Part shown: piece after piece, positions 5,954 through 20,779 of the stretch
Numbering within the stretch: position 1 is the first letter of the stretch
Layout: every line of letters starts with the position of its first letter
From: a virus
IMG/VR virus record: IMGVR_UViG_3300035670_001438
Span: 1-20,779 of that record
Length of the DNA stretch: 20,779 bases
Direction: 5' to 3' (one strand)
Program-made: the position numbers and the translations under genes
Notes under the pieces: model-generated
What the model saw: the letters and a program-made list of their open reading frames with translations, nothing else
Databases searched by the model: none
Told to the model about the DNA's origin: nothing

Positions 5954-6256
5954 CTATTTTAGCCCCAATGATTTTCTCTTTAATAGAGATCTTTTTCTTT
6001 TCAACAATGCTCGAGCCATTTTTGCCTTTCTTTTAATTTTTGCTCTGCGCGCGGCAAGTTTTCTCTTCATTCTTTCTCGTGGCAACATTCTTACCAATTT
6101 GCCACCACGAATTGTATATCCTTTTACAGCAGAAAATACTTTACGACGCTGCACCTTTCCGCCACGAACTCTTGCGCGAATGATCTTTTTTCTGCCCATT
6201 TTTTGGACATTTGCTTCAGCAATAATTTCTCTAACTACTTCTGATACAATGCTCAT
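5954..6256 (-). CDS. Highly basic prohead core protein, gp68-like
   Basis: 100 residues, the last 80 extremely rich in Arg and Lys (for example RKIIRARVRGGKVQRRK and KRKLAARRAKIKRKAKMAR). The position between the gp67-side genes and 21 is that of T4 gene 68, a prohead core protein, and the length and basic character fit related phage proteins. Direct similarity to T4 gp68 could not be checked. The acidic-neutral first 14 residues end in IIAE/AN, a potential gp21 cleavage site that would release the basic body. The start codon overlaps the upstream stop as ATGA (6253-6256). Electrostatic binding to the acidic scaffold gp22 or to DNA is inferred. Confidence 0.6.
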   Translation of the reverse strand: MSIVSEVVREIIAEANVQKMGRKKIIRARVRGGKVQRRKVFSAVKGYTIRGGKLVRMLPRERMKRKLAARRAKIKRKAKMARALLKRKRSLLKRKSLGLK

Positions 6257-7119
6257 TCGTCACCAATGGTAAATTTAACTCTGCTTAATGCAAAGTGTGC
6301 TGCTTTCTCAAATCCTTTTGGATGTGTAAGCATATCAGCAAATTTCTTTTTATTTTCATCATTCAATGCACCATGAACCATATGGATGGCTTTTGCTGCA
6401 CCGTGACTGACCTTTAACTTTGATCCATCAGCAAACTTCATGTGACGTGACGTTTGTTTTGGGGATTGCTCTTGAGCAAATTTTGCAACTTGATCAAGAC
6501 TTTCCATAATTTCTTCTTGTTCAAATTCTTCTGCTTGAACGCCAGGAAGAACTTCTGTTTGTGTACCTGAACCCTTATATGGAATTGTAAACACTAGACC
6601 TAATCTAGAATTTACATACATTGCAACGCGACGACCATCTGGGAAAATTCTAATGCCAGTACGCTTTAATACAAGCATTGGTGGTGGCATTGTTTCATCT
6701 TTTAATGTTGCTTCACAAATTTGATCTTTATCAAGAATATCAAATGAATTCATTAATGGTTTTTGAGAACCAGATGGTTTCAATACTTGCAATTGTCTTC
6801 TGAAACGATTCATTGGAGTATTTTGTCCTAATGAATCAGAAGGAACATGAGAAGCAACTGACATATAATTTTTTCTTTCTGTTGCAGAAAGTTTACTTAA
6901 AATTTGATTTGCAGGTGCATTTGGTGTTTTTGCAGCCTGTGACATAAACTTCTCATGACCAGTTGCAGCTGCACTTACGTTTAGATCTCTAAGACCTAAC
7001 GTAGATTTAGCAGCATTCAATTTTGCAAGAAGATCTTTATTCTTCTGTGGCGACGCTGGTATCTGCTTCTGCTGACTCTGCGCTTCCACCAACTTCTGCT
7101 TCAACTGTTTCAAGTTCAT
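6253..7119 (-). CDS. Unrecognised head-module protein (288 aa)
   Basis: I do not recognise this gene, which lies between 67 and the gp68-like gene. Residues 1-45 are Gln/Lys-rich and helical, with a possible gp21 site LVE/AQ (10-12). Residues 50-115 are polar. A compact central block starting at about 145 reads MPPPMLVLKRTGIRIFPDGRR and then VAMYVNSRLGLVFTIPYKG, which looks like a small beta-rich domain. The C-terminus (about 220-288) is helical, with MKFADGSKLKVSHGAAKAIH and similar. The start at 7119 puts the first 27 codons inside gene 67 in another frame (83-bp overlap), with a weak AGAAGAA site. A start after the gp67 stop is possible but would need a non-ATG codon or Met59. A role in head assembly is inferred only from position. 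Confidence 0.7.
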   Translation of the reverse strand: MNLKQLKQKLVEAQSQQKQIPASPQKNKDLLAKLNAAKSTLGLRDLNVSAAATGHEKFMSQAAKTPNAPANQILSKLSATERKNYMSVASHVPSDSLGQNTPMNRFRRQLQVLKPSGSQKPLMNSFDILDKDQICEATLKDETMPPPMLVLKRTGIRIFPDGRRVAMYVNSRLGLVFTIPYKGSGTQTEVLPGVQAEEFEQEEIMESLDQVAKFAQEQSPKQTSRHMKFADGSKLKVSHGAAKAIHMVHGALNDENKKKFADMLTHPKGFEKAAHFALSRVKFTIGDE

Positions 7120-8967: not shown

Positions 8968-9555
8968 TTAGCCTACTAGTCCAAGACCAGCAGCAACTGC
9001 GCTCGCGCCACCTGCAACTTCTCTGTCATTTGCTAACCAGTATTGATACTGGAAGGTTACAGAGAATTCTTCGATGGTGTCGTTTGAACCCCAATCAAGT
9101 TCAATTGGTGACAAATCGATTGGAAACATTCCAACAAATTTGTATGACTTGATTGGTGATCCACCAGCCTTTGAGTACTGGAACACTTGAGCATCAGAAG
9201 CATATTGCTGAGATGTTAATGCTCTACGAAGATTCGTTTCATTATCATTAATGCCGCGAATCCAAGATTCCATTGCATTACGGATAACGAAGTCTTCATC
9301 GTTAATAATTGTTACTGTCCAATCAGCAAAAGTACGATTGCCAGCAACTTTAACTTCACGACCGAAGTAGTTTACTGGAACTGAACCTAATGTTGATCCA
9401 GGCAATTGAGCAGTTTTAACCATAAAAGATGATTTTACAGTTGCGGTAGAGCGACCCTGAACATATGAAGGAAAGTTTAGTCTTACTTCAAATAAATTAG
9501 GGCGAGCACCGTCACCTGTTAGCTGCTGACGAAATTGATTTACATTAAAAGCCAT
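8968..9555 (-). CDS. 19: Tail tube protein gp19
   Basis: 195 residues; T4 gp19 is 163. Hexameric rings of this protein form the inner tube that the contracting sheath drives through the envelope. Family features are FEVRLNFP near the N-terminus, FMVKTAQLPGSTLG (residues 44-57), YFGREVKVAGNRTFADWTVT, DEDFVIRNAMESWIRGI (86-102), the FVGMFPIDLSPIELDW strand, and the C-terminal FSVTFQYQYW. It follows the sheath gene 18, as in T4. It has CAGGAG 6 bp upstream and a late-promoter motif at the gp18 stop. The Ala/Gly-rich last 15 residues are probably flexible. Confidence 0.96.
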   Translation of the reverse strand: MAFNVNQFRQQLTGDGARPNLFEVRLNFPSYVQGRSTATVKSSFMVKTAQLPGSTLGSVPVNYFGREVKVAGNRTFADWTVTIINDEDFVIRNAMESWIRGINDNETNLRRALTSQQYASDAQVFQYSKAGGSPIKSYKFVGMFPIDLSPIELDWGSNDTIEEFSVTFQYQYWLANDREVAGGASAVAAGLGLVG

Positions 9556-13369: not shown

Positions 13370-14376
13370 GTTATATCAGGAAATTCTTCCAATGTAGTAT
13401 CGAATCCAAATGCTGTGTTAACGTTTGCAGTATTTGGATTTGGGGTAACAGTGAGTTTTGTTAATTGTCCTGTTACTTCTGATGTTGAAATTAAATTGTA
13501 TGCAGCATTTGTAACAGCACCAAATACAAATCTTCCTGTTTGGAATATTCCTTTTGTGTCAACAACAACTAGCGTATTTGTTGAAGCATTCCATGATTGT
13601 ACAAATGCTGTTGCATTCGCTGAAAGTGCAGACCTACCTTCATAAACTAACTCATTGACCTTATAGTTGCCAGTTCCGCCAGAACCTGTGGCAGTATTAA
13701 CTGTGAACGATCTCAATTCTGATGATTGATATGTGCTATCGTAAGTATTTGCTGTCACTTTTCTGATAATATCTGTGTTTGATACTGGACCATACATAAA
13801 ACCTTTCATTGTAAACGTCAAGGTCCATATGATCATTCTTGTTGTATCAGGGCTTCCTTCTGCATCAACAGAAGAGTTAATCGATTGAAGCACAACTGGT
13901 AAATCAACATTTTGCCCTAATCCAAGAACATCTCCCGTTAAAGTCAAGTCTGGATTAAAATATGGCAAAATTTGTTCGACAATTTGAGTTCCGTCTTCAA
14001 CGTTACGAACATATATGCTCAAACTAAAATCAAAATTATATGGAACAGCTCTAAATGATTTTATAGTGCTTGCATCACTAGGTAAAAACGTTTGATTAAA
14101 GTTACTAATTTTTCGTAATGGATCATAAGAAATTGCATCTAGTTCAAAACTCATTCGTGGTAGAGTTATTTGAACAGTACGGTCTAAATTTGAATCTTGA
14201 ATAATTCGATTATAGAATTTTTCTTTTTGTGCATATGATAGTGGCACTGTTATTCTTTCAATTTCTGCAGTACCTGCTTTGTTATATCTGACCAATTTAA
14301 TGTCATTAAAAATGGTGCCGAATGCCACGACCATCTTACGAATTGTTCTATGATAAAAATGTGATCTAGAAAGCAT
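13366..14376 (-). CDS. 15: Tail sheath stabiliser / tail terminator gp15 with extra C-terminal domain
   Basis: 336 residues; T4 gp15 is 272. The protein caps the tail and joins it to the neck. It matches T4 gp15 along its first 200 residues: FYHRTIRKMVVAFGTIFNDI (7-26) against FYNSSFRRYATLMGDLFSNI, then ITVPLSYAQKEKFYNR, ITLPRMSFELDAISY, IVEQILPYFNPDLT (132-145) and IIWTLTFTMKGFMYGPV (182-198). Residues about 233-302 form an added domain also found in gp14 here: GGTGNYKVNELVYEG, then ATAFVQSWNASTNTL and DTKGIF. The start codon overlaps the gp14 stop (TAATG, 14374-14378). Confidence 0.94.
   Translation of the reverse strand: MLSRSHFYHRTIRKMVVAFGTIFNDIKLVRYNKAGTAEIERITVPLSYAQKEKFYNRIIQDSNLDRTVQITLPRMSFELDAISYDPLRKISNFNQTFLPSDASTIKSFRAVPYNFDFSLSIYVRNVEDGTQIVEQILPYFNPDLTLTGDVLGLGQNVDLPVVLQSINSSVDAEGSPDTTRMIIWTLTFTMKGFMYGPVSNTDIIRKVTANTYDSTYQSSELRSFTVNTATGSGGTGNYKVNELVYEGRSALSANATAFVQSWNASTNTLVVVDTKGIFQTGRFVFGAVTNAAYNLISTSEVTGQLTKLTVTPNPNTANVNTAFGFDTTLEEFPDIT
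13471..13680 (-). other. Small beta-rich domain in gp15, homologous to one in gp14
   Basis: Residues 233-302 of gp15 (GGTGNYKVNELVYEG, ATAFVQSWNASTNTL, DTKGIF, GAVTNAAYNLIS) align with gp14 residues 189-256. T4 gp15 is 64 residues shorter than this protein, close to the size of the module. Confidence 0.75.
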
Positions 14377-15245
14377 TATGGCTCACCAAATGGATTTGTT
14401 TCTGTAAAATCTAAGAAATTGTCACCCTCAGTTTCAATTCTAACGTTATCATCATAATCATTAGAAGAATCTTCTTGAACGTTTCCACTGACTAAAGTCC
14501 AAGATGCATTACTTGATGCTCCAGTTATTGTTGTATTATTTGCAAATATTCCCTTTGCATTCCTAATTTTAAGTTTTCTTGTAACTTTATCCCAAGAAGA
14601 AACATAACCAAATGCTGTTGCAACTGACACATTTGCCCCTTGGAACACTTTTTCGTTTAATGTGAAGGTGCCTGTTCCACCTGCAGTGAGAGAATATTCA
14701 ACGTTGAATGCAGTTTTATTCCCAAGGTCATCAATTTCAGTTGTTCCAGTATTGAACAATTCTCCATTATACTTAAACGCTTCAATACTCAATCCAAACA
14801 TGTATGGTTGAACTTTACCTGCTTGGAAAAAATTCTTTTCTTCTTCAACAAATTTAATTTCCATTAATTTTTGTTGAACTGGTAACCAAATTAAGTCACC
14901 CTCTTTCGGAACAACTTCTCCAGAAATAGGAGTGACGTATCGATTGAATGACCTTCTAGCAACTGCTAATTTTGCAGACTTTTGAATCTCTAAACCAAAC
15001 TTAGAGAAAAATTCTTGATTGCCTTCAAAGTCTTGGAATGATTCCATGTAAACTTCAATCTTAATTGCATCATTAAATGTTTTGACAGGATCATCTCCGA
15101 ATAGTTCATCGGTAGATGACTGCGATGCTCTTGGGAGATAGTATACATCGATGCCATGATTTTTAATTGATTCGATAATCAAATCTTCAATTAAAAATTG
15201 CTCAGATGTTGCTTTCTGGTTGTTGAAATAGACACTAGTTGCCAT
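14376..15245 (-). CDS. 14: Neck protein gp14 with extra C-terminal domain
   Basis: 289 residues; T4 gp14 is 256. It is a neck component that closes the filled head and binds the tail. Family pattern: an early YFNNQKATSEQFLIEDLIIESIKNHGIDVYY start (YLPR at 36-39), an IEVYMESFQDFEGNQEFFSKFG block (63-84), LAVARRSFNRYV, GDLIWLPVQQKLMEIKFVEE and FFQAGKVQPYMFGLSIEAFKYNGE. Residues about 189-256 hold a GGTGTFTLNEKVFQG ... ATAFGYVSSW ... AKGIF domain homologous to one in gp15. The end is acidic. It starts one base after the gp13 stop, so it is probably coupled. Confidence 0.93.
   Translation of the reverse strand: MATSVYFNNQKATSEQFLIEDLIIESIKNHGIDVYYLPRASQSSTDELFGDDPVKTFNDAIKIEVYMESFQDFEGNQEFFSKFGLEIQKSAKLAVARRSFNRYVTPISGEVVPKEGDLIWLPVQQKLMEIKFVEEEKNFFQAGKVQPYMFGLSIEAFKYNGELFNTGTTEIDDLGNKTAFNVEYSLTAGGTGTFTLNEKVFQGANVSVATAFGYVSSWDKVTRKLKIRNAKGIFANNTTITGASSNASWTLVSGNVQEDSSNDYDDNVRIETEGDNFLDFTETNPFGEP
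14478..14681 (-). other. Small beta-rich domain in gp14, homologous to one in gp15
   Basis: Residues 189-256 of gp14 follow the pattern GGTG-x4-NE-x-V-x2-G ... ATAF ... SW-x3-T-x2-L ... KGIF ... GA-x2-NA-x3-L. The same pattern occurs in gp15 at 13471-13680, which points to a duplicated or independently inserted module. Confidence 0.75.
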
Positions 15246-15246
15246 T

Positions 15247-16008
15247 TTAGCCTACAAACATTTGAGGTGGTTCTTCGTATACGTCTCTTAGTTTATCTTC
15301 TAACGCTGCAACTTCTATGACTGCATCGTTATAAATTTTTTCTCCATTAACGACTAAACCGCCTGGAAGCGTATAATTTGCATATTTGGTGATATTTGCA
15401 CCCCATTGTTCTTTAAACAGAGCTGTAGTGTATTCTTTAACCCATGTATCATTAAACACTTTGCTATAGCAATCAGCATCGACAACTCGAATTGCCTCAA
15501 AACACAAATAGTTGTTAACAACAAATTTACCAGCCCAATCAGTCAAAATATTAAGTTTATTAATTTTCTTGTTGTATGTGTATGGAAACTCTCCAGTAAC
15601 AATCATGTCAAGCATTGATAAATGCTCTTGAGCGATAACGTAGTAAGTGTAAGAACTCGAAGTTAGGTTATAAAAGTCATTTAAACGAAGCTGGTAATTA
15701 ATATCAAATATATTAAAACCAGAAGATGATGTTGATGAAACAGAAGATCCGCTAAATGGAAACACTCTGCTCACACCCACGATACTATCTGCAAGTTTAA
15801 CGTATTTGTTTAGAATATCCGCGTTTGTGATTTTATGTGCAAGATATATCTTTTCGGTTCCATCGTAGTGATAATCTCTAAATTTACCGAGAGCGTCATC
15901 GATTCGATCTTCTAATTGATCGTCGTCGACATTAATGTCGATAACTGGAAATCCGAGTTTTCGTAGACAGTAATCTTTTAATTCTGAGCGGGTTGTTGGT
16001 GTTGCCAT
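15247..16008 (-). CDS. 13: Neck protein gp13
   Basis: 253 residues; T4 gp13 is 309. With gp14 it forms the head-completion collar. The N-terminus RSELKDYCLRKLGFPVIDIN followed by DDDQLEDRIDDALGKFRDYHYDGTEK (about residues 8-51) is typical of the family in T4-like phages, as are the KYVKLADSIVGVSRVFPF strand, FDINYQLRLNDFYNL, and the LPGGLVVNGEKIYNDAVIEVAALEDKLRD C-terminal segment. It has an AGAGAGG ribosome-binding site and a late-promoter motif overlapping the preceding glycosyltransferase stop. It heads the 13-14-15-16-17 operon, whose members overlap or abut. Confidence 0.92.
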   Translation of the reverse strand: MATPTTRSELKDYCLRKLGFPVIDINVDDDQLEDRIDDALGKFRDYHYDGTEKIYLAHKITNADILNKYVKLADSIVGVSRVFPFSGSSVSSTSSSGFNIFDINYQLRLNDFYNLTSSSYTYYVIAQEHLSMLDMIVTGEFPYTYNKKINKLNILTDWAGKFVVNNYLCFEAIRVVDADCYSKVFNDTWVKEYTTALFKEQWGANITKYANYTLPGGLVVNGEKIYNDAVIEVAALEDKLRDVYEEPPQMFVG

Positions 16009-16035: not shown

Positions 16036-16043
16036 TATTTAGT
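16036..16043 (-). promoter_or_regulatory. Late promoter motif ACTAAATA upstream of gene 13
   Basis: ACTAAATA on the minus strand with the stop codon of the upstream gene (TAA, 16041-16039) inside it, 27 bp before the gp13 ATG. It resets late transcription between the accessory cassette and the neck-terminase operon. Confidence 0.68.
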
Positions 16044-16788
16044 TCTCAACCAATCTACCGTTTCTAGAACTATAAACAAGATTCGGATCCATATGAGCAA
16101 ACTGCTCCCAATTAGGCTCACCCTCTAAAATGCGTCTTCCAGTAGAGTTTTCTCCGATATGCTCTATCAAATTCTCTCCATTCGAACCTTTTAACGTTGC
16201 AGAATACATCTGATGAAAATAATCCAAATAAACCATTATCATCCCTTCGTTAATGTTAAAATTCCAATAATTCGTAAATGGATAATTTGTAATGTTTTTG
16301 CGATAAAGAGAGAAAATGATTGGAAATGTTTTTGTATTTTTAGAATAATAATATTGAGAAAACATGGTATCGGTTTCTTCTATTTTACTTTCTGTTTCAT
16401 GAAAGTACCATGGCTGTCGCTGCAGCACAACAGAAGCCATCTTTTCGTCTGATTCTAAACAATTAATCAGATCATCGATCTTAATTTTATGTTTTAAAAG
16501 AACATCATCTTCTTGATGGAGAACATAATCATAATCAGTGGTCTTAAGCCAATTAAAAAAGTTGGTCCAGGTTACAGATAATCCCAAATTTTCTGTATTG
16601 AGCCATAGCAATGTATTATGCGTTTTTGCCAACAAATTAAAGATAAAATCGTTTCTTGTTCTTGGATAATCATCTACTATCAAACGTGTGACTTGATGAT
16701 CCCCATAATCTATGTTATGGAGAGTTTCTAAAGTTTGTGTAAGATATTGTAATCGATTACACGAAAAGATTACATGAAGAATTTTCAT
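16039..16788 (-). CDS. GT-A fold (GT2-like) glycosyltransferase
   Basis: 249 residues, soluble, no signal peptide. The N-terminus has the nucleotide-sugar binding pattern: MKILHVIFSCNRLQYLTQTLETL (first strand and helix), RLIVDDYP (residues 35-42), NTENLGLSVTW (64-74) and a DxD-type metal site HQEDDV (91-96) after DYDYVL. This fits inverting family-2-like transferases, though the donor and acceptor cannot be told. ATG 16788 overlaps the upstream oxygenase stop (TAATG), so it is the last gene of a tight four-gene unit. The region is visibly more AT-rich than the structural genes around it, which suggests acquisition. Confidence 0.78.
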   Translation of the reverse strand: MKILHVIFSCNRLQYLTQTLETLHNIDYGDHQVTRLIVDDYPRTRNDFIFNLLAKTHNTLLWLNTENLGLSVTWTNFFNWLKTTDYDYVLHQEDDVLLKHKIKIDDLINCLESDEKMASVVLQRQPWYFHETESKIEETDTMFSQYYYSKNTKTFPIIFSLYRKNITNYPFTNYWNFNINEGMIMVYLDYFHQMYSATLKGSNGENLIEHIGENSTGRRILEGEPNWEQFAHMDPNLVYSSRNGRLVEN

Positions 16789-17345
16789 TAGAATTCTGTA
16801 TTAAAGAAAAACGTTTGGAATAGCCGACCATCTTGTAATGAATTGCCAAAGTAATCTACAGAAGCGTGATACATGTTTCCTCGATATAACACAATACGGT
16901 TAAATTTGTTGGAAACATAATCTGTCATTTCCCACTTGGTGTGATCATACCCATCATGATGCGGAGCGTCATTGTTTGTTCTCTCGTATTCTTTTGTTTC
17001 CTTCCAGCGATATAAGGCAGTGCCAGAAGAAAGTGGTGGATCAGGATTTAAATAACAAACACCTGCCCAAGTATTAAAACTGTCTGCATGAATCCATGTT
17101 CTATCTTTGGATGTGCAAATTTGAAATGCGCCAGTGTATCCAGAATCTTCGAACCAATGAGTGATTTTGCCGCCAGCGTTTTGAACAATGTGTTGTATTG
17201 ATGATTTGAGATCATCTGGAAGGTATGGTTTTGTTCTTAATCCAGGATAATTTCCAGAAACCTCAAATTTAAGAGAAAGAGCAAATGCTCTAACGTTCTC
17301 TGGATTGCTATAAAAATCATCGACAATAATAAGTTTCGTTTTCAT
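16788..17345 (-). CDS. 2-oxoglutarate/Fe(II) oxygenase-like protein (DUF6445-like)
   Basis: 185 residues. The metal-binding triad of the double-stranded beta-helix oxygenases is visible: TWIHADSFNTWAGVCYLN with His86 and Asp88, and YRGNMYHAS with distal His160. Arg174 in QDGRLFQTFFF is the likely 2-oxoglutarate anchor. Proteins of this type are small hydroxylase-like genes common in aquatic phages and bacteria; the substrate is unknown. Upstream is a good AAGGTGA ribosome-binding site in the 9-bp gap from the previous gene. The location between glycosyltransferases suggests action on a sugar, a nucleotide sugar or the protein side chain to be glycosylated, but that is inference. Confidence 0.72.
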   Translation of the reverse strand: MKTKLIIVDDFYSNPENVRAFALSLKFEVSGNYPGLRTKPYLPDDLKSSIQHIVQNAGGKITHWFEDSGYTGAFQICTSKDRTWIHADSFNTWAGVCYLNPDPPLSSGTALYRWKETKEYERTNNDAPHHDGYDHTKWEMTDYVSNKFNRIVLYRGNMYHASVDYFGNSLQDGRLFQTFFFNTEF

Positions 17346-17354
17346 TTGATCACC

Positions 17355-18107
17355 TTAATAGTACATAAACCTTGCTGATGTTCCATCCCATCCACAAACT
17401 CTCCAATCTGTCTCAACAATATCTTTTTCATATGGTCGCGTCAAGTAATATGATAGAGTTTCAATATCATAATGCGCCATAGATTTTTGTTTTAATAAAT
17501 GTATTGTTGCTTCATTAATATCTATCATTTTGTCTAATTGAGAACTACCAAATGCATATAAGACTGTGCAATATTGATGCAAACGATTATTATTTTGCTC
17601 TGTTCTTCTATCTATAAAATGATAGTTCCATCTATCTTGCCACTCAAAATTTAGTGGTCGTTTAAAAAACATTTTATGCAAATTTTCGACATTGAATAAA
17701 GAATCATTCAAATCAAAATAAAAGTATCTACCGCAACCTTTAATAATATAATCATATTCAAGAATTTCTTTTTTAAATGCTCTATAAAATGTATTCAACA
17801 ATAATGATTCGCACAAACTTTTATTTGGATGTGTGTTGACAACATCAAATGCATTTCTATCAATTTCTTTTAATGGAATAAATTCTGTATTTCTAAAAAA
17901 ACGAAATAAATGTTGATACTCAGCATAATCTTCTGAAGAGTCTACAAAAATAATTTTAGAATCTGGAAACGCATTTCTTATAGAGTTAACAGTAAAGATA
18001 CTTTGACGAAATCGTTCCTCTTTTGAGAAAACAGTTCGAACTTTGCTGTATGTTAACGGTGCTTCTTTTGTTTGAATAGAAGAACCGACTACAAATAACT
18101 TATTCAT
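17355..18107 (-). CDS. Putative glycosyltransferase-like protein
   Basis: 250 residues. The family is not certain. The order of elements resembles GT-A type proteins found in polysaccharide clusters: an N-terminal strand (KLFVVGSS), a helix with FRQSIFTVNSIRNAFPDSKIIFVDSSED (residues 33-60), then YDYIIKGCGRYFYFDLND (118-135), where IIKGxGRYF resembles the I-K-I-S-G-R-Y motif of such enzymes. The C-terminus is Tyr/Trp-rich (LSYYLTRPYEKDIVETDWRVCGWDG). It overlaps the upstream GT4 gene by 8 bp and is followed 9 bp later by the oxygenase. No transmembrane segment is seen. It could instead be a non-enzymatic relative; no clear DxD is placed with confidence. Confidence 0.55.
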   Translation of the reverse strand: MNKLFVVGSSIQTKEAPLTYSKVRTVFSKEERFRQSIFTVNSIRNAFPDSKIIFVDSSEDYAEYQHLFRFFRNTEFIPLKEIDRNAFDVVNTHPNKSLCESLLLNTFYRAFKKEILEYDYIIKGCGRYFYFDLNDSLFNVENLHKMFFKRPLNFEWQDRWNYHFIDRRTEQNNNRLHQYCTVLYAFGSSQLDKMIDINEATIHLLKQKSMAHYDIETLSYYLTRPYEKDIVETDWRVCGWDGTSARFMYY

Positions 18108-19095
18108 AAAAATTGTTCTTTATAATTTTTAACAGATATTGTCTATGGAGTTCGTGAACATTTTCGTCAGAATAATCTAAACCATGATATCGACATTCGA
18201 ATGGATCTATAGATTCTATGTCATTCATTGCATTTATTAATGATTTAAAGTCTCTAATTCTATATCCTGTAACACCATCAATAACAATCTCGGGAAATGC
18301 GCCCCAATCAGTTGTGATGACTGGTGTACCAGAAAGATTTGCTTCAATTACCATATTACCAAATGGCTCAACATAATATGTTAAACCTAACAAACATTTG
18401 GCATTTTTCATTAATTGTTTTCTTTGTTCTGCATTCGCAACACCAAACATCTCAACATGATCTGGTGTTTTACTGTATCCTAAATTTTTCAAATTTCCAG
18501 GACCAGCAATTATTAATTTTTTACCAAGTTTTTGTGTTGCTTGGATTGCAAGATGTATTCCTTTCTCTTCAACAACTCTACCAAAATATAAAAAATAATC
18601 TTCTTTTTTATCAGAATACTCAAATTCTTCAATAGTGAATGGGTTTGGAATTACTGCATCAAACCAAGAAGGGTTCATAAGCATTCCACGCTCGCCATAA
18701 AACATATGCATTTGCGCATAAGAGGTGAATGCTCGATATGGTGCAAATATTCCATTCGCTCTATACCCAATCGATGGTTCGACCCATTTACAGTTTGGAT
18801 TCATCTCACATGCAAGTTTATTGTCTACGCCAAAAAAACAAACAATGATATCACCATCAGATGCTCTTTGTCTAATTTGAGCACCAGCAATTTCATTGAA
18901 TCGTTTTATTTCTTTTGGGGTTGTATCAACATCGATATGCTCACAGTCGACTTGTGCGCCTGGAATTCCATAATGAATCATCTCAAAGTGTTGAGAAAGA
19001 TGTTTAATGTATTTGTAACCGTGGACTGCGAATGGATCAGTGCGGTTCATCAATCCTGTTGGATTGCGCGGATTAACAAGAACATGTATTTTCAT
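18100..19095 (-). CDS. Family 4 (GT-B) glycosyltransferase
   Basis: 331 residues; a retaining GT-B enzyme. The C-terminal donor domain is clear: FLYFGRVVEEKGIHLAIQAT (residues 168-187), KKLIIAGPGN (192-201), HVEMFGVANAEQRKQLMKNA, the E-x7-E signature EPFGNMVIE (243-251), and SGTPVITTDWGAFPEIVIDG with GVTGYRI. The N-terminal acceptor domain starts MKIHVLVNPRNPTGLMNRTDPF, a pattern seen in phage and LPS-locus transferases. It is the first gene of the cassette, with a late-promoter motif GATAAATA upstream and a weak GTGAG site. It could glycosylate virion proteins or remodel host surface sugars; the sequence does not decide. Confidence 0.87.
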   Translation of the reverse strand: MKIHVLVNPRNPTGLMNRTDPFAVHGYKYIKHLSQHFEMIHYGIPGAQVDCEHIDVDTTPKEIKRFNEIAGAQIRQRASDGDIIVCFFGVDNKLACEMNPNCKWVEPSIGYRANGIFAPYRAFTSYAQMHMFYGERGMLMNPSWFDAVIPNPFTIEEFEYSDKKEDYFLYFGRVVEEKGIHLAIQATQKLGKKLIIAGPGNLKNLGYSKTPDHVEMFGVANAEQRKQLMKNAKCLLGLTYYVEPFGNMVIEANLSGTPVITTDWGAFPEIVIDGVTGYRIRDFKSLINAMNDIESIDPFECRYHGLDYSDENVHELHRQYLLKIIKNNFYE

Positions 19096-19120: not shown

Positions 19121-19128
19121 TATTTATC
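19121..19128 (-). promoter_or_regulatory. Late promoter motif GATAAATA upstream of the sugar cassette
   Basis: GATAAATA on the minus strand contains the fibre gene stop codon (TAA, 19126-19124) and lies 25 bp before the GT4 start. It fits the NATAAATA-type late element of T4-like phages and implies that the cassette is expressed with the virion genes. Confidence 0.6.
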
Positions 19129-20779
19129 GAACATCCTTCATCGTCAATGTTCCCCAGAATGTGGTGCCACCATCATATGTCAAGAATGTCCAAAGGTCGC
19201 GTGCATTTGCATCTGTTGTTGCTGGAGGAATCGTGCCACCAGCCCAATAAACAGTATTAGTCCATGATGGAGTTTTACCACCAGTGCCGTCTTGAATCAC
19301 CAACATTGAAATTAATTGACCTGTTCCAGAGGCTGGTGCATTTGCAAAGGTGAATGCAGTACTTCCAGTTAATACATGACGGAAATAATTTGAGTTTGAT
19401 AGATCAACAGTGTTTGCTGTTGTTGTCGCAGTGCAAGCGACCATAAAGTCTTTTGCACCTCTCAAAGTTATTCTTGTCGTGCCATCAGAAACATTATTTG
19501 CCGCTGTGTATGCAGCGTTTGCTTGACCATAAGCATTATTGGCTTGTGTGCGTGCAGTGTTAGCCTGATCGCGTGCTGCATTAGCCTGACCATAAGCATT
19601 GCCAGCAATTGTCACACCAGAGTTTGCTTGACCATACGCAGAATTTGCTGTATCGCGAGCAGTGTTTGCTTGAGTTCTAGCAGTGTTTGCTTGATCACGA
19701 GCATTATTTGCTTGACCGTAAGCATTACCAGCAATGGTTACTCCAGAATTTGCTTGAGCATATACAATGTTCGCATGAGCATATGCGCCATTAGCCTGTG
19801 CATAGGCACCGTTGGCTGTATCTCTGGCAGTGTTTGCCTGACCGCGAGCAGCATTTGCCTGACCATACGCAGCGTTGGCTTGACCATATGAATTTAGCGC
19901 ATTTGTTTCAGAAGTATTAGCAGCACCATATGCATCATTAGCAGTTGTTCTAGCAGTGTTTGCTTGGTCGCGAGCAGTGTTGGCTTGACCATATGCGCTC
20001 AATGCAACTGTTTCTGCTGTATTTGCTTTACCGTATGCATCATTAGCAGTTGTTCTAGCAGTATTAGCCTGAGCGTAAGAATCGTTTGCTGTCCCGCGAG
20101 CAGTATTTGCCTGGTCACGAGCAGTATTTGCTTGAGCGTAAACTATATTTGCATGCGCATACGCACCATTGGCTTGTGCATATGCACCTTGAGCAGTAGT
20201 CTGTGCTGAATTTGCAGCACCATATGCATCATTAGCAGTTGCGCGAGCCGTGTTTGCTTGACCATAAGCGACATTCGCCTGACCATATGCAGTATTTGCT
20301 TGGTCTCTAGCGGCATTTGCTTGAGCATATGAATTTAGCGCATTTGTTTCAGAAGTATTAGCAGCACCGTATGCGTCATTGGCTGTATTGCGTGCGGTGT
20401 TAGCCTGAGCATAAGAATCATTAGCAGTGTTGCGTGCGGTATTTGCTTGATCTCTTGCGCTATTTGCTTGACCATAAGCAGCATTGGCTTGATCATTTGA
20501 AATAGTTAGATTTGCTTGCGTTGCAACAGCATTACCAACAAGCAAGATGCTATTGGCTTCAAGATTTGCTCGAAGTGTTGCCATAATTGTATTAGCAACA
20601 TCGATGACATTATTCTCATGACCTTCGTCAGCTAATCCTGTAAAGAGATAGAATTTACCATCTCCTGCATGACGAGCAAGACCAGAGTGTTGATAAACTC
20701 CAGCAGTATTATGACCACCCATGAAACCGATATCGACAAGATCACTGGTTTCATTATTAGCAGCCAAATAAATCAATGG
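19124..20779 (-). CDS. Fibre-like structural protein with 48 heptad repeats, 5' end outside window
   Basis: The frame is open to the right edge (codons CCA TTG ATT...), and the TTG at 20776 has no ribosome-binding context, so the true start lies outside. Residues are numbered from 20776. The first 93 residues include SDLVDIGFMGGHNTAGVYQH and ARHAGDGKFYLFTGLADEGHE, a segment typical of fibre proteins of aquatic T4-like phages. Residues 94-429 are 48 uninterrupted heptads of consensus [YR]-x-[QT]-A-N-x-[AS]. This periodicity puts Ala and small residues in core positions and suggests a long alpha-helical, probably trimeric, rod. The last 121 residues (TLRGAKDFMVACTATTTANT ... WGTLTMKDVR) form a beta-rich tip like other phage fibre C-termini. 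It precedes the neck genes, where T4 has the coiled-coil fibritin gene wac. It could be a tail fibre or a whisker; which one is unresolved. Confidence 0.82.
   Translation of the reverse strand, partial: PLIYLAANNETSDLVDIGFMGGHNTAGVYQHSGLARHAGDGKFYLFTGLADEGHENNVIDVANTIMATLRANLEANSILLVGNAVATQANLTISNDQANAAYGQANSARDQANTARNTANDSYAQANTARNTANDAYGAANTSETNALNSYAQANAARDQANTAYGQANVAYGQANTARATANDAYGAANSAQTTAQGAYAQANGAYAHANIVYAQANTARDQANTARGTANDSYAQANTARTTANDAYGKANTAETVALSAYGQANTARDQANTARTTANDAYGAANTSETNALNSYGQANAAYGQANAARGQANTARDTANGAYAQANGAYAHANIVYAQANSGVTIAGNAYGQANNARDQANTARTQANTARDTANSAYGQANSGVTIAGNAYGQANAARDQANTARTQANNAYGQANAAYTAANNVSDGTTRITLRGAKDFMVACTATTTANTVDLSNSNYFRHVLTGSTAFTFANAPASGTGQLISMLVIQDGTGGKTPSWTNTVYWAGGTIPPATTDANARDLWTFLTYDGGTTFWGTLTMKDVR
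19490..20497 (-). repeat. Array of 48 in-frame 21-bp (7-residue) repeats
   Basis: 1008 bp encoding 48 consecutive heptads with no insertion or phase break. Most are of type YGQANTA, RDQANTA, RTTANDA or YAQANxA; rarer variants are ETNALNS, VTIAGNA and YAHANIV. Synonymous codons differ between copies, but some longer blocks are nearly identical at the DNA level, which points to repeated internal duplication. Confidence 0.9.
19885..20368 (-). repeat. Pair of 43-bp identical direct repeats inside the heptad array
   Basis: Bases 19885-19927 and 20326-20368 are identical over 43 bp. The offset is 441 bp, exactly 21 heptads, and the repeats encode the same AANTSETNALNSY stretch. This is a signature of recent duplication or recombination within the fibre gene. 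Confidence 0.85.

Follow-up and report, generated by a model that had tools for sequence, protein, structure and literature searches.

A conserved glycosyltransferase-oxygenase cassette linked to a tail-fibre domain in T4-like phages, and its possible role in virion-protein glycosylation

Why would a T4-like phage place three putative glycosyltransferases and an oxygenase between its tail-fibre gene and the neck gene 13? The question is raised by the window, the whole 20,779-nucleotide (nt) stretch of DNA analysed here, which is a fragment of an uncultivated T4-like freshwater phage held as an IMG/VR-type virus record (IMGVR_UViG_3300035670_001438). The minus strand carries every recognised gene of the window, and four of these form a cassette at positions 16039-19095 (-). 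From the high-coordinate end, they code for GT4 (18100..19095), a retaining GT-B glycosyltransferase of 331 amino acids (aa); GTx (17355..18107), a glycosyltransferase (GT)-like protein with a GT-A fold (250 aa); OX (16788..17345), an Fe(II)/2-oxoglutarate (2OG) oxygenase of the DUF6445 family (185 aa); and GTA (16039..16788), a GT2-like GT-A glycosyltransferase (249 aa). We propose, with about even confidence, that the cassette is a module for late glycan assembly whose substrate is a virion protein, the C-terminal domain of the adjacent fibre being the first candidate.

The four open reading frames are present as the initial annotation had described them, overlapping or closely spaced, with junctions of -8, +9 and -1 nt, and 28 nt and 30 nt separate the cassette from the fibre stop and from gene 13, respectively. 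To follow the cassette in other viruses, viral contigs were scanned with each of its proteins, which gave about 300 loci, many of them overlapping, and these were clustered at about 95% nucleotide identity by k-mer. Fifty-two divergent clusters share the order GT4-GTx-OX without exception. GTA comes directly next in 39 of the 41 T4-type clusters, follows after a 509-nt insert in one and is absent from one; the 173-kb T4-type genome G011 has no GTA, and in the T4-type genome G007 a further 2OG oxygenase gene separates OX from GTA. The median ratios of nonsynonymous to synonymous substitution for the cassette genes (0.04-0.11) are as low as those of the structural genes g13 and g18, indicating strong purifying selection. 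The same block, at 36-63% identity, is also found in a large (jumbo) phage lineage without a match to the T4-type major capsid protein. Because such a diverged block sits in an unrelated lineage, the cassette is a self-contained unit, passed from one phage lineage to another that is not related to it. The GC content of its genes (0.29-0.37, compared with 0.34-0.38 in g13-g17) is clearly lower only for GTx, and base composition gives no clear sign of a foreign origin. The cassette had been singled out at the outset as the most system-like feature of the window, and the search for its gene order in related phage genomes gives this view strong support: the invariant order recurs in the 52 clusters, the block has one promoter, is transferable and is under purifying selection, and its homologues are not limited to unrelated singletons.

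The timing of expression can be predicted from the promoters. A late promoter-like motif, GATAAATA, overlaps the fibre stop at 19121..19128 (-) and precedes the start of GT4 by 25 nt; a second one, ACTAAATA, at 16036..16043 (-), overlaps the stop of GTA, precedes gene 13 by 27 nt and begins a new unit. In distinct relatives, the late-promoter core TAAATA was sought 18-45 nt upstream of each gene start, where its chance occurrence is 0.0125 per site. It was present upstream of GT4 in 28 of 42 relatives, of g13 in 41 of 42 and of g18 in all 17, compared with 1/41 for GTx, 2/49 for OX and 0/49 for GTA (together 3/139). Because TAAATA precedes GT4 and gene 13 and not the three inner genes, the cassette is predicted to form a single late transcript. 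The promoter of its own and the new one at gene 13, both named in the initial annotation, are thus borne out, and the late expression proposed there is supported, as a prediction, by a promoter placement kept in relatives.

Which feature of the phage does this late unit accompany? A scan anchored on gene 13, and therefore not biased toward the cassette, covered the best 80 of more than 590 IMG/VR gene-13 loci. Among the 45 distinct loci with enough upstream sequence, GTA was found upstream in 25 and not in 20; G011 is one of the latter, yet it has GT4-GTx-OX. The cassette is optional at this site, and cassette-negative relatives hold other genes there. With stricter de-duplication, one fibre C-terminal domain, located at 19124..19468 (-) in the window, was found within 1.5 kb upstream in 15 of 15 cassette loci versus 0 of 12 cassette-free loci (Fisher 6e-8, not corrected for relatedness or phylogeny). 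In the wider, cassette-anchored set, the directly upstream fibre has this domain in 32 of 44 T4-type cases, and the linkage holds across 35 distinct fibres, whose shafts are either QAN coiled coils (about 1-2% proline) or collagen-like GXY repeats (mostly 9-15% proline). As the cassette is kept with both kinds of shaft, its association is with the C-terminal domain and not with the shaft.

This bears on the idea that the fibre rod, described earlier as rich in Asn, Thr, Ser and Tyr, is the target. The window fibre gene (19124..20779, -) has its 5' end off the contig, matches phrog_13173 (2e-18) and other tail-fibre families, and codes for a QAN-repeat shaft with 23.6% Ala, 12.7% Asn, 12.4% Thr, 5.5% Tyr and 4.2% Ser. 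The shaft is hence Ala/Asn/Thr-rich, which corrects the earlier description. The rod is not favoured as target, since the cassette is kept beside collagen-like and QAN shafts alike, and an element common to these fibres, for instance the C-terminal domain, makes a better candidate. The prolines of collagen-like shafts were likewise considered and dropped, the cassette being equally present with QAN shafts that are almost without proline. The window fibre has only four prolines, all of them in the C-terminal domain. Across 29 distinct domains of this kind, three of the four are more than 95% conserved, two of which form the pair in PPATT (fibre residues 517-521; 19214..19228, -), a putative acceptor. 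As a separate observation, the 35 distinct relatives document a shaft swap with a fixed tip, in which one C-terminal domain is carried on QAN or collagen-like shafts (for example L088 and L123).

An optional cassette at this position might also mean that its products act on a small molecule or a soluble host target, such as a free glycan or a cofactor, and that the location reflects an accessory-gene recombination hot spot by gene 13. The region from fibre to gene 13 is a known hypervariable site (PMC7029224), the other genes found there in cassette-negative relatives fit such a hot spot, GT4 is distantly similar to pterin glucosyltransferases, and a role in nitrogen metabolism has been proposed for cyanophage 2OG oxygenases (PMC3037559). 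However, the 15/15 versus 0/12 link to one fibre domain would not be expected from a hot spot by itself, and we consider this explanation unlikely.

In a Pfam profile search, GT4 matched PF00534 (3.2e-22; 79.3 bits versus a cut-off of 26.4), and it also matched phrog_3408 (1e-59) and glycosyltransferases of the PDB (2.8e-14). The EX7E motif is present in 73 of 73 distinct relatives, which together with the profile places the protein in family GT4. For OX, GTx and GTA we relied on folds, because a search of solved structures with their sequence profiles gave nothing usable. GTx matched no Pfam family; its AlphaFold2 model (predicted local distance difference test score, pLDDT, 94.1) has a GT-A fold of the retaining type that resembles the GT6 and GT8 folds, with alpha-1,3-galactosyltransferase and glycogenin as the best Foldseek matches (E 3.5e-6, TM about 0.5). 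GTA falls below the PF00535 cut-off in the window (0.0035; 17.7 bits versus 23.3), its jumbo-phage homologue lies above it (3.8e-6; 27.4 bits), and an EDD motif is invariant in 78 of 78 distinct relatives. No specific family emerged from searches of the defence-system and NCBIfam libraries.

OX belongs to the Fe(II)/2OG oxygenase superfamily, family DUF6445, by profile, by catalytic residues and by predicted fold. It matched PF20043/DUF6445 (2.6e-14; 54.2 bits versus a cut-off of 24) and phrog_1644 (2e-37). H86-x-D88, H160 and R174, corresponding to the HxD...H metal triad and the distal arginine for 2OG, are invariant in 31 aligned sequences, and the HxD..H..R pattern recurs in 82 of 82 distinct OX proteins. 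Its AlphaFold2 model (pLDDT 91.1) is a PHD2-like double-stranded beta-helix with Foldseek matches to PHD2 (7e-6), OGFOD1 and HygX (E about 1e-5). HygX is an antibiotic-sugar oxygenase, acting on a sugar-containing antibiotic, and its TM-score to OX is even higher than that of PHD2, so that the modelled fold alone does not fix the substrate, for example as that of a prolyl 4-hydroxylase. DUF6445 is not mentioned in the open-licence papers searched, and the parts read of cyanophage virion proteome papers hold no evidence on DUF6445 proteins. DUF6445 proteins of phrog_1644 are labelled 'minor coat protein' in RefSeq cyanophage and pelagiphage records (e.g. NC_031935, NC_020484). This label is probably a propagated misannotation, since motif and fold alike mark the protein of the window as a 2OG oxygenase, and we suggest that for the RefSeq cyanophage relatives it is misleading.

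The joint presence of an oxygenase and glycosyltransferases follows the logic of base J and of the TET/JBP phages, in which the oxygenase would hydroxylate a base and the transferases would glycosylate it, in the style of base J or of the hydroxymethylcytosine of T4. Such hypermodification of phage DNA, named as an alternative in the initial annotation, has in its favour the dCMP deaminase gene that adjoins the jumbo copies of the cassette and a separate Tet_JBP gene in the relative G011. But OX is a DUF6445 and not a Tet_JBP protein by profile, its nearest folds include protein hydroxylases, and the cassette lies in a late structural unit. The hydroxymethylase family PF00303 was not found in six relatives, and neither the TET/JBP nor the T4 type of DNA glycosylation matches what the cassette contains. 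The Tet_JBP genes sit in the replication region of cassette-positive G011 (G011:C1:111747-112133), about 28 kb from the cassette, and of cassette-negative G012 (G012:C1:194474-194860), both T4-like freshwater relatives, and this suggests a DNA base modification independent of the cassette. We regard DNA as a very improbable substrate.

In the virion-protein glycosylation that we favour, the cassette enzymes would work in the host cytosol while particles are being assembled and attach a short glycan to a virion protein, and the best candidate substrate would be the adjacent receptor-binding fibre, notably its C-terminal domain. The DUF6445 enzyme would hydroxylate either an amino-acid side chain, to which the initial sugar is then attached, or one of the sugars in the chain as it grows, and the three glycosyltransferases, acting in series, would give a chain of one to three sugars. 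The initial annotation had offered virion-protein glycosylation, perhaps after hydroxylation, as a hypothesis; it gains indirect support from the link to the fibre C-terminal domain and from oxygenase and glycosyltransferase groups beside fibres in cyanophages and relatives, and the modification itself is what we infer from these.

Several such groups were found, the first three of them in cultured cyanophages. The cultured Synechococcus phage S-CAM7 (NC_031927) has, in this order, a tail-fibre-like protein, a collagen-repeat protein (PF01391), a GT4 homologue (36.5%), a GT-like protein, a 2OG oxygenase (PF13640) and a tail fibre. It resembles the window in that the GT4 homologue, the GT-like protein and the oxygenase form one run between tail-fibre genes, but its oxygenase is PF13640 and not DUF6445, its middle gene is weakly GT-B-like, and the run lies upstream of another fibre instead of gene 13. 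S-WAM2 has DUF6445 and another 2OG oxygenase between the fibres and gene 13, and DSL-LC02 has DUF6445 and annotated transferase genes between fibre and collagen-like genes; in S-SSM7 and Sf-FS3, DUF6445 is paired with transferases annotated as fucosyl- and GT25 enzymes, at a distance from the fibres. In the relatives G005 (L215:15308-18927) and G011 (L326:8355-12149), a second set, which lies across the same fibres from the cassette, comprises a PF13640 2OG oxygenase, a DUF6065 protein, a DUF6065-related protein and a PF11397 GlcNAc transferase. Parts of this second set are also seen in L343, L344 and L345, and it recurs in relatives with and without the cassette, PF11397 being found in G005 and G011. 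In a different phage, L060, a DUF6445 gene (52% identity to that of the window) and the gene of a collagen-like repeat protein are about 5 kb apart (L060:8001-8579 and 13810-15453), and the DUF6445 gene adjoins other genes of unknown role.

We know of no oxygenase in the virion glycosylation of mycobacteriophages. These are the phages for which virion glycosylation is established (Freeman et al. 2023, cited in PMC12619734), and there, too, phage-encoded glycosyltransferases act on virion proteins, but the modified sites are the C-termini of capsid and tail-tube proteins, in a different phage group. If our proposal holds, another likeness would be the prolyl hydroxylation and glycosylation of Skp1 in Dictyostelium and Toxoplasma, in which one soluble PHD2-type 2OG hydroxylase and serial cytosolic transferases act on one protein (PMC6939170, PMC12101541). 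The folds of OX (PHD2-like) and GTx (glycogenin/GT8-like) are in line with this comparison, a common ancestry of the pathways not being shown. However, the Skp1 pathway is eukaryotic, has a single proline target and includes a GT60 enzyme that is absent from the cassette. PF11397, which we take to correspond to GT60, matched none of the four cassette proteins and is present in the separate set of G005 and G011. In the Skp1 pathway, it is a GT60 enzyme that acts on hydroxyproline (PMC6939170). By analogy with Skp1, hydroxylation before glycosylation is plausible, and we advance it tentatively. A full hydroxylation-dependent pathway, in which the DUF6445 enzyme would hydroxylate a conserved residue of the fibre C-terminal domain, e.g. 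a PPATT proline, on which the three transferases would build a glycan, would be a viral counterpart of the Skp1 pathway, passed as a unit between unrelated phages; this version we consider doubtful.

A number of points weigh against glycosylation of the fibre. Virion modification is proposed here from gene evidence: gene order, the single-promoter layout, families with intact catalytic residues, selection, transfer and fibre-domain linkage can be read from the sequence, whereas enzyme activity and the fibre as target we infer. GTx has KxxGRYF where a DxD motif is expected, as judged from sequence alignment and predicted strands only, and because of this and the missing family profile match we have not filed it in GT6 or GT8. 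The C-terminal domain is widespread, also occurs in phages without the cassette and is therefore not sufficient for it; a strict rule by which the domain means the cassette was rejected, as cassette-free relatives have the domain on another protein. Partial Mantel tests of the cassette versus the fibre domain gave a gradient for which physical linkage accounts, and they were not counted as evidence. The jumbo copies of the cassette have no fibre genes beside them, and nothing in the 207-kb jumbo contig G001 matches the fibre C-terminal domain.

The same jumbo copies, which are followed by the dCMP deaminase gene and lie near rIIA-like genes or genes for UDP-glucose dehydrogenase or carbamoyltransferase, fit better with the main and serious rival, which we hold to be possible though less probable than virion modification. 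The cassette would here remodel the surface glycan of the infected host, e.g. a lipid-linked O-unit at the cytosolic face, against superinfection or to free progeny from debris, and the fibre link would reflect a shared receptor, so that an association with a receptor-binding domain is expected as well. Generic GT4 profile matches include enzymes of lipopolysaccharide and exopolysaccharide synthesis, and glycosyltransferases in the same region of pelagimyophages have been read as modifiers of host O-chains (PMC7029224). This region is the host recognition cluster of pelagimyophages and cyanomyophages, and the gene order of the window and of G005 and G011 agrees with it: fibres and glycosyltransferases, accessory and variable, between structural and neck genes. 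In contrast to the variable glycosyltransferase sets of that cluster, the genes described here form a fixed four-gene operon with a 2OG oxygenase, tied to one fibre domain. Further, the cassette carries no gene for a flippase, a polymerase or a lipid-linked initiating transferase, a late operon would be expressed late for superinfection exclusion, and none of the known O-chain changes offers an obvious role for the oxygenase. A GtrABC-type serotype conversion is also not apparent, as no flippase and no bactoprenol glycosyltransferase are among the four genes according to their family assignments (no transmembrane prediction was run). Host-glycan remodelling, which the initial annotation had listed, is accordingly kept as a rival, with the jumbo context and the published view of the region on its side and the missing flippase, polymerase and initiating transferase against it.

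The region, phage glycosyltransferases, phage 2OG oxygenases and virion glycosylation in mycobacteriophages are already known. The open-licence papers searched gave no description of the fixed four-gene module, of its passage from one phage to an unrelated one or of its association with a fibre domain. 2OG oxygenases and glycosyltransferases are numerous in aquatic T4-like phages, and guesses at their roles usually point to host metabolism or to changes of the O-chain. An operon that is fixed, can be transferred and goes with a single receptor-binding fibre domain raises the more specific question of whether phage fibres are hydroxylated and glycosylated, a type of protein-sugar modification of a phage's own fibre that has barely been explored. 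The prolyl hydroxylases needed for phage collagens have been said to be lacking in bacteria and viruses (PMC3368898), a view that the cassette locus would test. If the proposed modification is real, it would bear on host range, on fibre stability and on the meaning of many so-called auxiliary metabolic genes.

Few hints to the host were obtained. GTx was found at only one locus in bacterial genomes, a phage contig with the same cassette and gene 13, so that no host context was gained; this T4-like contig, L224 (JANXME010000142.1), was binned in a metagenome-assembled genome of Actinomycetes, which is either contamination or a hint to the host. No psbA was found in six relatives, and Pelagibacter and Synechococcus phages are equally near in the major capsid protein. 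The cassette-bearing jumbo phage G001 also has a CsgG curli-secretion gene (G001:C1:106075-106701; 1e-49), as reported for pelagimyophages and methylophages.

The remainder of the window confirms that the cassette interrupts the fibre-to-gene-13 part of a T4-ordered block. From the high-coordinate end, the 5'-truncated fibre gene and the cassette are followed by genes 13, 14, 15, 16, 17, 18, 19 and 20, two small genes, genes 21, 22 and 23, a second tail-tube-like gene, uvsY and uvsW. Gene 13 (15247..16008, -; phrog_211, 1.6e-39) is the downstream boundary of the cassette. The two small genes between 20 and 21 (5954-7119), one without a PHROG match and the other with a weak match to phrog_4187, are placed where T4 has genes 67 and 68. 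The second tail-tube-like gene (2024-2599; phrog_45) lies between gene 23 and uvsY, and the regular gene 19 is located at 8968-9555.

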